NCBI RefSeq assembly: GCF_900169715.1 | Contig: NZ_LT835161.1 | Span: 558,001-622,000 of the forward strand | Reading direction: 5' to 3' | DNA from: Kocuria massiliensis | Lineage (GTDB): Bacteria > Actinomycetota > Actinomycetes > Actinomycetales > Micrococcaceae | Length of the DNA stretch: 64,000 nucleotides | Part shown: piece after piece, positions 44,474 to 62,446 of the stretch | Numbering within the stretch: the stretch's first letter is position 1 | How the letters are laid out: every line of letters begins with the position of its first letter | Notes under the pieces: generated by a model | What the model was told of the DNA's origin: nothing | Seen by the model: the letters and a program-made list of their open reading frames with translations, nothing else | Database searches by the model: none | Program-made: the position numbers and the translations under genes

Positions 44474-45097
44474 ATGGCTACTGAAACCGTTAAGGTCGAC
44501 CTGCCGGCCGATGTCTTCGGTGTTGAGCCCAATGAGGCGTTGATGCACCAGGTCGTCATCGCCCAGTTGGCCGCTGCCCGCCAGGGTACGCACAAGGCGA
44601 AGAACCGCGGCGAGGTCGCTGGTTCGGGCCGCAAGCCGTTCAAGCAGAAGGGCACCGGCCGTGCCCGTCAGGGTTCGGTCCGTATGCCGCAGCACACCGG
44701 CGGTGGCGTCGTTCACGGCCCCGTGCCGCGTGACTACTCGCAGCGCACCCCCAAGAAGATGAAGGCCGCGGCTCTCCGCGGTGCTCTCTCCGATCGCGCG
44801 AACCATGGCCGCATCCATGTGGTCAGCTCGCTCGTCGAGGAGATCTCCACCAAGGCAGCCAAGGCAGCCCTGAGGGACCTCACCTCTCGCAATAAGGTGC
44901 TGGTGGTTATCGACCGCAAGGAAGATAACGTCGCCCTGTCCGTCCGCAACCTCGAGTTTGCCCACGTACTGTACGCCGATCAGCTCAACACTTACGACGT
45001 GTTGCGCGCCGACGACGTGGTCTTCACCAAGGATGCGTACGACGTATTTGTGGCATTCGCCAGCAAGGCTGGAAAGAACCAGGAGGACGCCAAGTGA
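44474..45097 (+). CDS. rplD: 50S ribosomal protein L4
   Basis: Lines the exit tunnel and, in E. coli, represses the S10 operon. 207 aa. The tunnel loop has the signature [19 protein letters not shown]. Only five bases separate it from rplC, whose last codons (GTGAAGGGAGCC) supply the ribosome site. The stop overlaps the rplW start. Confidence 0.98.
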
Positions 45098-46622: not shown

Positions 46623-46988
46623 ATGGAAGCCAAGGCATCTGCGCGCTACGTTCGCGTGACGCCTATGAAGGCCCGGCGCGTCGTCAACCTGATTCGTGGC
46701 AAGCAGGCGAATGAGGCACTGGCGATTCTGAAGTTTGCCCCGCAGGGCGCTTCGGAACCGGTCTTCAAGATCGTCGAGTCGGCTGTGGCAAATGCCCGCC
46801 AGCTCGCGGATCGCGACAGCGTCGCTTACAAAGAAGAAGAACTCTTCATCAGCGAAGCGTACGTGGACGAAGGCCCGACCATGAAGCGGTTCCAGCCGCG
46901 TGCTCAGGGTCGTGCATACCGCATCAACAAGCGAACCAGCCACATCACCGTGGTGCTCGCTACCCCGGAGAACGAGGAGGACCGCTAA
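46623..46988 (+). CDS. rplV: 50S ribosomal protein L22
   Basis: Tunnel protein that forms the constriction with L4; macrolide-related site. 121 aa. Seen: [20 protein letters not shown] and the hairpin [21 protein letters not shown] 46623 follows AAAGAGAGATAGGCA. rpsC starts at the very next base after the stop. Confidence 0.98.
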
Positions 46989-47819
46989 GTGGGACAGAAA
47001 ATCAACCCGCACGGATTCCGACTGGGGATCACCACGGACCACAAGTCACACTGGTTCGCTGACTCCAACAAGGAAGGCCAGCGCTACAAGGACTTCATCC
47101 GCGAGGACGTGAAGATCCGTGAGCTCATGTCGAACGGCATGGAGCGCGCCGGCATCGCCAACGTCGAGATCGAGCGTACCCGTGACCGTGTCCGTGTGGA
47201 TATTCACACCGCACGCCCCGGTATCGTCATCGGCCGCCGTGGCGCCGAAGCTGATCGCATCCGCGGCGAGCTCGAGAAGCTCACCGGCAAGCAGATCCAG
47301 CTGAACATCCTTGAGGTTTCGAACCCCGAGGTCAACGCCCAGCTTGTAGCTCAGGGTGTTGCGGAGCAGCTCGCTTCGCGTGTGGCTTTCCGCCGCGCGA
47401 TGAAGAAGGCCATCCAGTCCGCAGAGCGGGCCGGAGCCAAGGGCATCCGTATTCAGTGCTCGGGTCGTCTTGGCGGCGCGGAAATGTCCCGCTCGGAGTT
47501 CTACCGAGAGGGTCGCGTGCCGCTGCACACCCTTCGCGCCAACATCGATTACGGCTTCTTCGAGGCCAAGACCACCTTCGGTCGCATCGGTGTCAAGGTG
47601 TGGATCTACAAGGGTGACTTGACTGATAAGGAACTTGCTGCTCAGCAGGCCGCGCAGGGTAACCGCCGCGGTAACAACGATCGCCGCCCCGGTGGTGGCG
47701 AGCGTCGTCGTCGTAACGCCGGTGGAGCCGGTCGTCGCGGTGGACGCAACGAGCAGCAGAATGGCGCTTCGGAAGCTCCGGCGGCCGAAGCCAAGACTGC
47801 AGAAAACGGTGAGGCATAA
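46989..47819 (+). CDS. rpsC: 30S ribosomal protein S3
   Basis: 30S mRNA-entry protein with helicase-like role. 276 aa. KH domain with [20 protein letters not shown] (about 77-96), then [20 protein letters not shown]. From about 218 the protein adds a 58-residue tail, first Gly/Arg/Asn-rich ([19 protein letters not shown]), then Ala/Glu-rich; E. coli S3 stops at 233. GTG 46989 with GAGGAGGACCGCTAA upstream inside rplV. Confidence 0.97.
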
Positions 47820-51660: not shown

Positions 51661-52023
51661 ATGGCTAACAAGACGAAGTTCGCTGCTCGCAAGCGCCGCC
51701 ACGCGCGCGTTCGCAAGCACGTCTCCGGTACCGCGGCGCGTCCCCGTCTCTCGGTGTTCCGTTCGACCAAGCACATGTTCGTGCAGGTCATCGACGACGC
51801 CCAGGGCAACACGCTGGCCTCGGCTTCCACGCTGGAAGCCGAGTTGCGTTCCGCAACCGATATGGACAAGACCGCAAAGGCCAAGCGCGTCGGTGAATTG
51901 ATCGCCGAACGTGCCAAGGCTGCGGGCGTCGAGTCCGTTGTATTCGATCGTGGCGGCAACAAGTACCACGGCCGCGTGGCCGCTGTTGCTGAAGGCGCCC
52001 GGGAAGGTGGGCTGGCACTGTGA
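51661..52023 (+). CDS. rplR: 50S ribosomal protein L18
   Basis: 5S rRNA-binding protein. 120 aa. Seen: [20 protein letters not shown] and [23 protein letters not shown] 51661 follows the rplF end GGAAAGGCTGGTAAGTAAAC. Its stop overlaps the rpsE start (GTGA). Confidence 0.98.
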
Positions 52024-52730
52024 GCGAGCAGACTGCAAACGAAAAGGAAAATCAGGTGGCAGAGAACAACGCTGCAACTGAGAACTCCGAGACCGAGAAC
52101 TCCTCGAAGCGCGACGACCGTCGCGGCGGCAACCGCGGTGAACGCGGCGGCCGTGGTCGCAATGACCGCAACGATCGCGGAGGCCGCGGTGGACGTGGCG
52201 GCCGCGACGAGGAGAAGGACAAGTACATCGAGAAGGTTGTCACCATCAACCGCGTCTCGAAGGTCGTCAAGGGCGGCCGTCGCTTCAGCTTCACCGCTCT
52301 CGTCGTCGTAGGCGACGGTAACGGTTTGGTCGGCGTCGGCTACGGAAAGGCCAAGGAAGTTCCCTCGGCTATTTCCAAGGGTGTCGAGGAAGCAAAGAAG
52401 AACTTCTTCCGCGTGCCCCGCGTCGAAGACCGCACGATCCCGCACCGTGTGCAGGGTGAAGCGGCCGCAGGTGTCGTTATGCTCCGTCCCGCTACCGCTG
52501 GTACCGGTGTTATCGCCGGTGGTCCGGTGCGTGCGGTACTCGAGTGTGCGGGTATCCACGACGTGCTGTCCAAGTCCCTCGGTTCCTCGAACCAGATCAA
52601 TATCGTGCACGCGGCCATTGAGGCCCTGCGTATGCTCGAAGAGCCCGTTGCCGTTGCGGCCCGCCGTGGTCTGCCGAACGACGAGGTTATCCCGAGCTAC
52701 CTGCTGCGCGATGAAAAGGCAGGTGCGTAA
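52020..52730 (+). CDS. rpsE: 30S ribosomal protein S5, with Arg/Gly-rich N-terminal extension
   Basis: Guards decoding accuracy and mRNA entry; spectinomycin site. 236 aa against 167 in E. coli. Residues about 1-65 are an extension: acidic at first, then Arg/Gly/Asp/Asn-rich ([20 protein letters not shown]). The S5 fold begins at [20 protein letters not shown] with [12 protein letters not shown] and [18 protein letters not shown] 52020 overlaps rplR. Extensions here are usual in actinobacteria; this Gly/Arg density is high. Confidence 0.97.
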
Positions 52731-59510: not shown

Positions 59511-60518
59511 GTGCTCATTGCACAGCGCCCCTCCCTGAGTGAAGAAGTCGTCGAGAATCACCGCTCGCGCTTCACGATCTCGCCTCTCGAACCCGGATTC
59601 GGCTACACGCTGGGTAACTCCCTGCGTCGCACGCTTTTGTCCTCCATCCCCGGTGCAGCCGTGACCAGTATCCGTATCGACGGTGTACTGCACGAGTTCT
59701 CCACCGTGGACGGTGTGAAGGAAGATGTCACCGAGATCATCCTGAACATCAAGCAGCTCTCGGTCTCTTCGGAGAACGACGAGCCGGTCATCGCCTACCT
59801 GCGCAAGCAGGGCCCGGGCGAGTTGACCGCGGCGGACATTGAGGTGCCCGCCGGTGTGGAGATCCATAACCCGGAGCTGCACATCGCGACCCTCAACGCC
59901 AAGGGATCCTTCAACGCCGAGCTGACCATCGAGCGTGGACGCGGTTACGTGTCTGCCTCGCAGAATAAGGTCGGTGCCGGTGAATCGGAGATCGGCCGGA
60001 TTCCGGTTGACTCCATCTATTCGCCGGTTCTCAAGGTGACCTTCCGCGTCGCGGCAACCCGTGTGGAGCAGCGTACCGACTTCGACAGCCTCGTGCTCGA
60101 CGTCGAGACCAAGGAAGCCATCGCCCCGCGCGATGCCGTGGCCTCCGCCGGTAGCACCCTGGTTGAGCTCTTCGGTTTGGCCCGTGAGCTCAATACTGAA
60201 GCTGAAGGCATTGAGGTTGGACCGTCGCCCGCCGACGAGTCGATGGCCGCTGATATGGCGTTGCCCATCGAGGACCTCGACATGTCCGTGCGTTCGTACA
60301 ACTGCCTCAAGCGCGAGGGCATCCACACCGTGGGTGAGCTCGTGACTCGTTCCGAAGCCGATTTGATGGACATCCGAAACTTCGGTGCCAAGTCCATCGA
60401 CGAGGTCAAGGACAAGCTGGCTGAGTTGGGGATGTCGCTCAAGGATTCGCCCGCCGGATTCGACCTTGCGGCACGCGCCGCTGAGGACGAAGAGAGCGAA
60501 GAGGAAGAGTCGTTCTAA
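59511..60518 (+). CDS. rpoA: DNA-directed RNA polymerase subunit alpha
   Basis: Assembly platform of RNA polymerase; its C-terminal domain binds UP elements and activators. 335 aa. N domain: [21 protein letters not shown] domain: [20 protein letters not shown] and [20 protein letters not shown], then an acidic tail ([11 protein letters not shown]). GTG 59511 follows GAAAGGAAACATCA. Confidence 0.99.
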
Positions 60519-60614: not shown

Positions 60615-61322
60615 ATGCCTACTCCCACCAAGGGGCCGCGCCTCGGCGGTAGCCCCTCGCACCAGCGCCTGATTCTGGCGAACATGTCCCAGCAGCTCTT
60701 CGAGCACAAGCGCATCACCACCACGGTGACCAAGGCCAAGCGTCTCCGCCCGGTTGCCGAGCGTCTCATCACGTTCGCCAAGCGTGGAGACCTCGCCGCT
60801 CGCCGTCGCGTGATGCGTAGCCTCACGGACAAGTCCGTGGTGCACGAGCTGTTCACCACCATCGCCCCGGCCATGGCCGAGCGTCCCGGTGGATACACCC
60901 GCATTACCAAGATCGGTTACCGTTCGGGCGACAACGCCCCGATGGCCGTTATCGAGCTCGTCATGGAGCCGGTCGCGTCCAAGTCGGTTGTCAACGAGGC
61001 GACTCAGGCCGCTAACGCCGCCGCCGCTTCGAACCAGGCAACTGAGGCACCCGTCGTCGAAGAGCCCGCCGCTGAAGAGCCCGCCGCTGAGGAAGTTCCC
61101 GCTTCGGATCTCCCCGCCGGTTCGCACGCTCCTTTGGAGTCCGGCGAGGCTCCCGAGGGCTTCCAGATCAAGGGCAACCGCGATTCGATGAAGTACCACG
61201 TTCCCGGTTCGCGCTGGTATGAAAACACCCGCGCCGAGATCTGGTTCGACACCGCGGACTCCGCCATCGCGGCCGGTTACGCACCGGCCGGCGGCGCCGC
61301 CGCTCAGAAGGTCTCCGAGTAA
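60615..61322 (+). CDS. rplQ: 50S ribosomal protein L17 with an added C-terminal module
   Basis: Residues 1-120 are a complete L17 ([20 protein letters not shown], ending near [17 protein letters not shown]), which binds near the exit tunnel. The other half of the 235 aa is extra: an Ala/Glu/Pro linker (about 121-172), then a compact module with [20 protein letters not shown] and [20 protein letters not shown] (about 182-229). That module resembles the short IKGN...YHxPG...WF...A-G-(F/Y) domain found at the ends of some actinobacterial nucleases and exported proteins, which has been called a sunset domain. Its role is unknown to me. ATG 60615 follows TGGAGAAACAGTCAT. Confidence 0.96.
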
Positions 61323-61347: not shown

Positions 61348-61388
61348 ACTCAAGCCCCGTTCACCTATGTGGTGAGCGGGGCTTGAGT
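61348..61388. terminator. Terminator after rplQ
   Basis: ACTCAAGCCCCGTTCACC / GGTGAGCGGGGCTTGAGT, 18 pairs with one G-U, loop TATGT, then ATTCT. Confidence 0.9.
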
Positions 61389-61429
61389 ATTCTGTAGAGG
61401 CTGTGGGTCGAGTGGAGCAAGGAGAAGCA

Positions 61430-62446
61430 ATGACGGACGGTCGACGGGAGCCGGGGCGCTCAGGGCAGGCGGAATCGGGCCACCCCCTCGGCGCTGTGGT
61501 CGAGGGCATCTCGGCGCGGGACGCCGAGGAGCGAGTCCGTGTCAGACTCGATTTCGGCTACGACGGCGGCCCCTTTTCGGGCTGGGCGAAGCAGCCTGGC
61601 CTTGTGACGGTGGAAGGCTGTCTGGAGGAAGCCCTCAGCCTCGTCTTACGGCGTCCGATCAAGTTGACGGTAGCCGGACGCACCGACGCCGGAGTTCACG
61701 CCGACCATCAAGTCGTCCATGTCGATATGCCTGGGGACGTCTGGCGGAATCTCCCAGGGCGTCGAGGGCCGGATGGGCCCGGTACGGATGACCCGTCGTC
61801 GTCCCTGGTGAGGAAGGCGAATGGGGCGCTCACCCGGATTCTTTCTCGCGCTTTTCCGCCGTTGCGCCCGGGTGCACCGTCGCACGCTGTGGGTGCCATT
61901 TTGGTCTGGAAGGCCCAAAGAGTCGACGTCGGCTTCGATGCGCGCTTCTCGGCACTGTCCCGATCGTACGTGTATCGAATTGCGGATGGTCTGGACCATC
62001 AATCGCCGCTGAACCGGACCACGTCGTACTGGGCCAAGTCTCGACTGAGCCTTGAGACCCTCAACGCAGCAGGGGAGCGGTTGGTGGGCCTCCACGATTT
62101 CCTGTCCTTCTGCAAGCCCCGTGAGGGTGCGACGACGGTGCGTGACGTCCGTTCGGTGACTTTCGACAGAACGTCCACCGGTCTGATTGAGGCCCGGATC
62201 AGCGCGGATGCGTTCTGTCACAACATGGTTCGAGCGATGGTGGGCTCTTGCCTGCTGGTTGCGGAGGGGAAGAGAGATATGGCGTGGCTGGACTCGCGCC
62301 TGGAGGATCCCATTAGGGACTCCTCGGTTCGTCTTGCGCCGCCGGAGGGGCTGGTCCTCGAAAGTGTGCGGTACCCGGAAGACCCGCTGCAATGGGCCGA
62401 AAGGGCGCGGCAAACCCGAGCCAAACGGTCTGAAGGCCCCGCTTAA
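61430..62446 (+). CDS. truA: tRNA pseudouridine(38-40) synthase TruA
   Basis: Makes pseudouridine at positions 38-40 of many tRNAs. 338 aa, longer than the 270 of E. coli through an N-terminal extension of about 35 residues and a loop rich in Gly/Asp after residue 100. Catalytic Asp86 is in AGRTDAGVHA; SFCKPREGATTVRD and AFCHNMVRAMVGSCL are also typical. ATG 61430 follows AGCAAGGAGAAGCA; a GTG at 61403 is less likely. Confidence 0.95.
   Translation: MTDGRREPGRSGQAESGHPLGAVVEGISARDAEERVRVRLDFGYDGGPFSGWAKQPGLVTVEGCLEEALSLVLRRPIKLTVAGRTDAGVHADHQVVHVDMPGDVWRNLPGRRGPDGPGTDDPSSSLVRKANGALTRILSRAFPPLRPGAPSHAVGAILVWKAQRVDVGFDARFSALSRSYVYRIADGLDHQSPLNRTTSYWAKSRLSLETLNAAGERLVGLHDFLSFCKPREGATTVRDVRSVTFDRTSTGLIEARISADAFCHNMVRAMVGSCLLVAEGKRDMAWLDSRLEDPIRDSSVRLAPPEGLVLESVRYPEDPLQWAERARQTRAKRSEGPA

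Follow-up and report, generated by a model that had tools for sequence, protein, structure and literature searches.

A ribosomal protein with a long second part raises the question of what this part is and what it may be for. In the 64,000-nucleotide stretch of Kocuria massiliensis DNA that was analysed (the window), ribosomal protein L17 comprises 235 amino acids, and the Pfam family Ribosomal_L17 (PF01196) covers aa 21-116 of it (profile search, E 1.5e-38); about half of the protein thus lies beyond the L17 fold, as had been stated in the original prediction. The gene, rplQ, is flanked by a reading frame at 59511-60518 on the upstream side, which we take to be rpoA, and by one at 61403-62446, presumably truA. 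Its segments, and two ribosomal protein genes of the same window that served as controls, are as follows:

60615..61322, + strand: rplQ, L17 with sunset tail, 235 aa plus stop (open reading frame; NF051448, 362.1 bits)
60615..60965, + strand: L17 core, aa 1-117 (PF01196 on aa 21-116; pLDDT 87-96 at aa 11-120; dN/dS 0.101)
60966..61106, + strand: Ala/Glu/Val/Pro-rich linker, aa 118-164 (by composition, pLDDT and low identity within the genus)
61107..61166, + strand: arm on the N-terminal side of the module, aa 165-184 (pLDDT 88-89 when the tail is modelled alone, 53-71 within full-length L17)
61167..61292, + strand: sunset domain, aa 185-226 (NF051437, E 8.1e-20)
61293..61319, + strand: conserved C-terminal peptide, aa 227-235 (dN/dS 0.109; low pLDDT at the very end)
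44474..45097, + strand: uL4, 207 aa, no sunset tail, in-window control (open reading frame; named by recall and likeness)
46623..46988, + strand: uL22, 121 aa, no sunset tail, in-window control (open reading frame; named by recall and likeness)

Two further reading frames of the window have terminal extensions: that at 46989-47819, taken for S3, has a C-terminal tail rich in Gly, Arg and Asn, and that at 52020-52730, taken for S5, an N-terminal extension rich in Arg and Gly. After the L17 stop an inverted repeat (ctcaagccccg ... cggggcttgag, 61349-61387) is found with no T run behind it; a terminator scan 3' of L17 called nothing.

The tail had been predicted to be a "sunset"-type domain, and this identification was borne out: the NCBIfam model NF051437 ("sunset", a 42-position domain) matches aa 185-226 of 235 at E 8.1e-20 with 70.6 bits (cut-off 27), and both sequence strings quoted in the prediction lie inside this segment. 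Five sunset models match the L17 tail, namely NF051437 and the models of the L4, L20, S2 and ArfC variants (NF051449, NF051450, NF051451 and NF051433, respectively), which describe the same C-terminal domain on different hosts. The entire protein is matched by NF051448, "50S ribosomal protein L17, sunset domain variant" (E 1.2e-108; 362.1 bits versus a cut-off of 280), end to end over profile positions 1-229 of 229. Judged by these profile matches, the tail is the NCBIfam sunset domain and not a chance match, and the window protein is a member of an already known L17-sunset fusion; the NF051448 entry, from which the window protein shows no difference, names this variant and gives no function for it. 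No Pfam model matches the tail. The preceding linker consists largely of four residues (15 Ala, 9 Glu, 6 Val and 5 Pro in 47), and there is no cysteine between aa 118 and 235. The window's own genome contains a single sunset match at E <=0.001; with the protein as query a second, insignificant match came up (E 0.68).

Within the genus, NF051448 was matched in 34 of 35 genomes and its cut-off passed in 33; the sole genome without a match is 65% complete. All 32 good-quality genomes match the model, with only one (G198) below the cut-off: here, at G198:C1:2359255-2359912, the match to L17 and its sunset tail is split over two frames, of 186 and 71 aa, which points to a frameshift or an assembly error. 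The dN/dS ratio, computed by segment from 30 L17 genes of the genus, is 0.117 for the sunset domain (42 codons) and 0.101 for the L17 core; it amounts to 0.109 for the terminal peptide (aa 227-235), 0.168 for the arm (aa 165-184) and 0.233 for the linker, where dS is near saturation and identity has fallen to 57% with 21% gaps. The sunset domain is under strong purifying selection, almost as strict as that on the L17 core, and the linker drifts. The contrary outcome considered with the original prediction, a tail related to no domain family and varying freely in close relatives, is contradicted twice, by the NF051437 match and by the low dN/dS of the domain. The conserved module exceeds the 42-position NCBIfam model: the arm and the short C-terminal peptide are also kept, and arm and sunset domain together span about 62 residues. 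Across 64 modules from ribosomal hosts 15 positions are invariant, and visual inspection shows a similar arm in the L4, S2, S16 and NuoE hosts and in membrane-anchored ones.

According to the AlphaFold models, the module is predicted to fold on its own behind a disordered linker, as a folded bead on a string. With 64 related modules as input, aa 165-235 (arm included) were modeled at pLDDT 86 and pTM 0.75. In the model of full-length L17, block means were 87-96 for the core (aa 11-120) and 76-84 for the sunset domain, whereas the linker contained a helix at aa 123-141 (pLDDT about 70) and fell below 50 at aa 142-165 (predicted disorder); confidence in the arm was 88-89 in the tail-only model versus 53-71 (aa 161-180) in the full-length model. 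The sunset domain of the full-length model consists of three strands (aa 185-188, 193-195 and 209-211) and a helix (aa 214-219).

Inspection of a ribosome structure for density of the tail had been proposed as a check, and could be followed for one relative: in the PDB, only uL4 of Cutibacterium acnes (8crx chain e) clearly matches the sunset query, at about residues 242-293. This extension also bears a sunset domain, but on L4 and not on L17; C. acnes L17 (187 aa) ends in an Ala-rich tail, and no chain other than L4 matched the query. In the available part of the paper to which entry 8CRX belongs (PMC10085706), no density is reported for the uL4 extension of the C. acnes 70S ribosome, and its authors called the extension likely disordered. 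Such a gap would be expected of a loosely tethered folded domain, and equally of simple disorder; a tethered bead is thus an alternative reading to disorder throughout. In the open-licence literature searched, no paper on the sunset domain was found, and the passages of a review (PMC10931766) consulted for L17, L20, actinobacteria and C-terminal extension contain nothing on it. The same searches yielded no publication on four points taken up below: the putative relationship to Ada, the additional hosts, the exchange of the domain between ribosomal proteins and the copying of tails.

The distribution of the domain was followed in 365 open reading frames, 341 of them distinct, with hosts assigned by BLAST to one reference each and some checked by HMM. 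The distinct frames comprise L17 (80), L20 (61), L4 (38), L22 (6), S16 (4), S2 (4), NuoC (2) and one each of NuoE, NusA, AtpG and aquaporin, together with 101 cysteine-containing hosts and 41 other cysteine-less ones, some of them tails of truncated genes. Among the cysteine-less hosts, HMM searches confirmed S16 (L019, L037, L129, L263), L22 (L193, L238, L240, L242, L265), S2 (L241), L20 (L049, L191), L4 (L033, L038, L219, L237) and L17 (L046), and outside the ribosome NusA (L220), ATP synthase gamma (L239) and NuoE (L015). Of the two NuoC-like hosts, L224 scored over the Pfam cut-off and L232 below those of NCBIfam; the aquaporin-like host (L264) exceeded the Pfam MIP cut-off and stayed below that of NCBIfam. 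For L22, S16, NusA, AtpG, NuoC-like, NuoE and aquaporin-like hosts, there was no sunset-variant model among the NCBIfam families returned. The domain had been described as familiar from exported nucleases and surface proteins, and such hosts were indeed recovered: exported-looking proteins, often with a cysteine pair at the domain, include SNase-type (L048, L198, L399), choline-binding-repeat (L057) and GmrSD_C (L066) proteins. Further hosts are membrane-anchored, some of them resembling mycobacterial ArfC by eye. The mean net charge is -3.6 in 175 cysteine-less modules and +0.7 in 62 with cysteines; the acidic nature of the former fits contact with protein rather than with rRNA.

Judged from these host assignments in Actinomycetota, the sunset domain is specific neither to L17 nor to ribosomes. 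Ribosomal proteins seldom exchange parts, and here one domain is found on six of them (L4, L17, L20, L22, S2, S16) and on other complexes as well. At the level of the order, 53 of 198 genomes have a sunset match; for the phylum the figure is 39 of 396 (34 above the cut-off), and for the order to which G338 belongs 29 of 59. A scan of viral contigs gave no relative and no support for a phage origin; this origin was also rejected on the 20 phage records listed of the 22 that match full-length L17, all of which align within aa 7-120 and never to the tail. Two tandem sunset modules occur in one reading frame in L266 (G627) and L366 (G676), and in the control genome of Bacillus subtilis the sunset model matches above its cut-off. 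Some sequence titles seem at odds with their content: L110 (titled Sporosarcina beigongshangi) and L132 (Acidobacteria bacterium G2_11) encode L4 with an Arthrobacter-type sunset tail and are probably mislabelled or mixed assemblies, and L081 (titled Curtobacterium sp. S6), whose module is 98% identical to that of the window, probably derives from a near relative of the window's organism and has been misnamed.

The belief that L17 of other Micrococcaceae has comparable tails was correct as far as it went: they were found in Rothia, Kocuria, Micrococcus and Pseudarthrobacter among the best 80 relatives, but in the family as a whole L17 is not the most frequent carrier. The family of the window is taken to be Micrococcaceae, and the genus g1 in it to be Rothia-like, from the named loci that group with them in the module tree. 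A sunset domain is present in 107 of 149 genomes of the family, and 42 have no match at E 1e-5. Among the matches listed, 80 of the 107 have exactly one ribosomal host, with L20 (46 genomes) outnumbering L17 alone (27) and L4 (7); L17 and L4 are combined in 3 of the 107, L17 and L20 in none, and in 24 the script assigned no ribosomal host, although two of these do have one (in G736 a contig end cuts the tail, whose sequence is the same as that on L17 of L294; in G753 an L20 frame lies upstream and the tail in another frame). All ribosomal sunset hosts of the family, among the matches listed, are 50S proteins. That the L17 and L20 forms never occur in one genome is suggestive only (P 0.043 by genus, with no correction for descent). 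Sunset-bearing genomes of one genus share their host, or have L17 with and without L4 (g372). Presence also varies within genera: in g2 the L20 form was found in 2 of the 7 genomes listed, and in g372 three genomes have a sunset domain and two listed have none. Such patchy presence across the family indicates that the function is dispensable there. A strict rule of one sunset domain per ribosome was considered and rejected; 80 of the 83 family genomes with a ribosomal host fit it, but it is broken elsewhere (L4 and L17 in Knoellia; L4, L17 and S16 in Janibacter), which leaves a tendency.

How one domain may have come to sit on different subunits is suggested by genomes in which the tails of unrelated genes are nearly identical. 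Twelve genomes with at least two hosts that are not membrane-anchored were picked by hand; G322 and G571, whose hosts are L20-type and NuoC-like, were set aside, as was the tandem fragment L266. In G094, where both genes lie on one contig, the L4 and L17 tails are identical at 250 of 255 nt along an ungapped tract that starts inside the linker and ends with the domain, and 2 of the 64 shared codons differ synonymously; in G136, the S16 and L17 tails agree at 189 of 210 nt, and in G657, a many-contig draft and therefore less sure, those of L4 and S16 at 278 of 287 nt. The cross-host identity inside the genome is 0.95 (G094), 0.88 (G136) and 0.98 (G657), and the nearest same-host module in the other genomes of the set reaches 0.51-0.76. 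By this comparison of tails, the tail DNA has been copied between unrelated genes within the genome, and recently, in these three genomes; the shared Ala/Glu linkers may have been the crossing point. Within-genome copying as a general rule was rejected, since the best cross-host identity is 0.52-0.78 in the other nine of the 12 genomes. At least 31 host changes are needed in a module tree (153 sequences after thinning at 90% identity per host; 60 columns; only starred forks used), of whose 149 inner branches 76 are left open; in it, the family's L20 copies group together (97*), and those on L17 of the Rothia/Kocuria type make up a separate clade (98*).

Taken with the predicted shape, these observations suggest as the leading reading that the sunset domain is a tethered, portable and interchangeable protein-protein docking tag of large complexes with a common putative partner, to which we assign a probability of roughly 0.42. 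The reading is drawn from the coincidence of features: a folded, tethered bead ends proteins of big assemblies, is held by selection, is acidic and sits on subunits that vary between lineages. The module would be recognised by a common partner, which could be a scaffold, an anchor on the membrane side or another sunset domain, and the long linker would extend the module's reach beyond the complex; as a rule, a single tagged 50S protein might suffice for each ribosome in the window's family, and the choice of L17, L20 or L4 as the tagged subunit would seem to matter little. Against the docking tag, the window's own genome has a single sunset match and thus does not require several sunset proteins to form a network; the reading is further weakened by the patchy presence, by the several ribosomal hosts outside the family and by the nine of 12 genomes without near-identical tails. 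Should the tag reading hold, the partner would reveal how some bacteria position their ribosomes or link them to membrane complexes, and the patchy, swappable attachment makes the function genetically testable.

The best rival, which we consider rather unlikely, is a C-terminal cap: a compact domain that would block processive proteases (Tsp/Prc, ClpXP, the Mpa-proteasome) at the loose end of a tail. The position of the domain is in keeping with this, as it lies within 25 aa of the end of the reading frame in 331 of the 341 distinct frames and thus near the extreme C-terminus of unrelated hosts (nine lie further off and one is cut by the end of its locus), mostly after a low-complexity stretch, which in the window protein is predicted to be disordered. 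In C. acnes, L17 has an Ala-rich tail for which the PDB search gave no sunset match, so that a cap could be a later addition to such tails. However, the two NuoC-like hosts extend 118-123 aa past the domain, and capping would leave unexplained both the 15 invariant positions and the relatives that do without the module.

Improbable, in our estimate, is docking specific to the ribosome, by which the module would bind a nascent-chain factor or a hibernation factor, or mediate ribosome pairing, on the side of the 50S subunit where the tunnel opens. L4, L17 and L22 surround the exit tunnel, the commonest identified cysteine-less hosts are ribosomal and those listed for the family all belong to the 50S subunit, but the 30S proteins S2 and S16 as well as NusA, AtpG, NuoE, NuoC-like and aquaporin-like proteins bear the same kind of module. 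Of the roles guessed at in the original prediction, those confined to the ribosome are weakened by these hosts and by the density missing for C. acnes uL4 (PMC10085706); membrane contact may still play a part, as the identified non-ribosomal cysteine-less hosts except NusA are membrane proteins or parts of membrane complexes. A comparably low probability is given to a selfish or neutral tail, in which Ala/Glu codons would supply the homology for recombination and the module would spread without use. The copied tracts do start inside the linker, hosts are varied and absence is common; such a tail, however, would hardly keep a dN/dS so near that of the core (0.117 versus 0.101, with 0.233 in the linker), nor would 33 of 35 genus genomes be expected to pass the L17-sunset cut-off.

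A possible structural relationship emerged from comparison with the PDB: the top three Foldseek hits of the module were chains of the N-terminal zinc domain of Ada (N-Ada; 1u8b with probability 0.85, TM 0.51 and E 0.25, followed by 1wpk and 1zgw), none at E <=0.001, and the same three gave VIA-align Z scores of 3.9, 3.8 and 3.6, all other chains of the 41 remaining below 2. Profile comparison by hhalign of 61 varied sunset domains with 22 Ada-type domains yielded a probability of 96.2 (E 2.7e-9, 44 columns); with a window-centred sunset set the values were 85.0 and 6.3e-6. The Pfam family Ada_Zn_binding (PF02805) weakly matches 4 of the 61 sunset members (best 0.006) and does not match the window tail up to E 10. 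The likeness is seen in the profile and tentatively in the fold: three cysteines are invariant in the 22 aligned Ada-type domains, whereas the window domain is without the zinc cysteines and is not called by Pfam. Based on these models and profiles, sunset may be a distant, cysteine-less kin of the Ada zinc domain that has lost the metal site, and not a member of that family. A role of the window domain in DNA repair is not expected, and nucleic-acid binding in the manner of the Ada zinc domain on the DNA backbone, for which the likeness to N-Ada and the RNA-binding nature of several hosts might speak, is very improbable given a tail with no cysteine for an Ada-type zinc site, a mean net charge of -3.6 in the cysteine-less modules and hosts such as AtpG, NuoE and aquaporin.

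Returning to the docking tag, a wider form of it would make the cysteine-less Ada-like fold a general tag of Actinomycetota, read by one partner system on channels, complex I, ATP synthase and NusA as well as on ribosomes; translation would thereby be coupled to membrane machines, with lineages switching the tagged subunit by copying tail DNA. In this breadth it is doubtful. Three sequences appear intermediate between sunset and Ada-type domains, with Ada-like cysteines: L235 (G309), G275:C2 and G284:C8. The latter two are matched by both the sunset and the PF02805 models, with sunset below its cut-off; among the three, the sunset cut-off is passed in G309 only.
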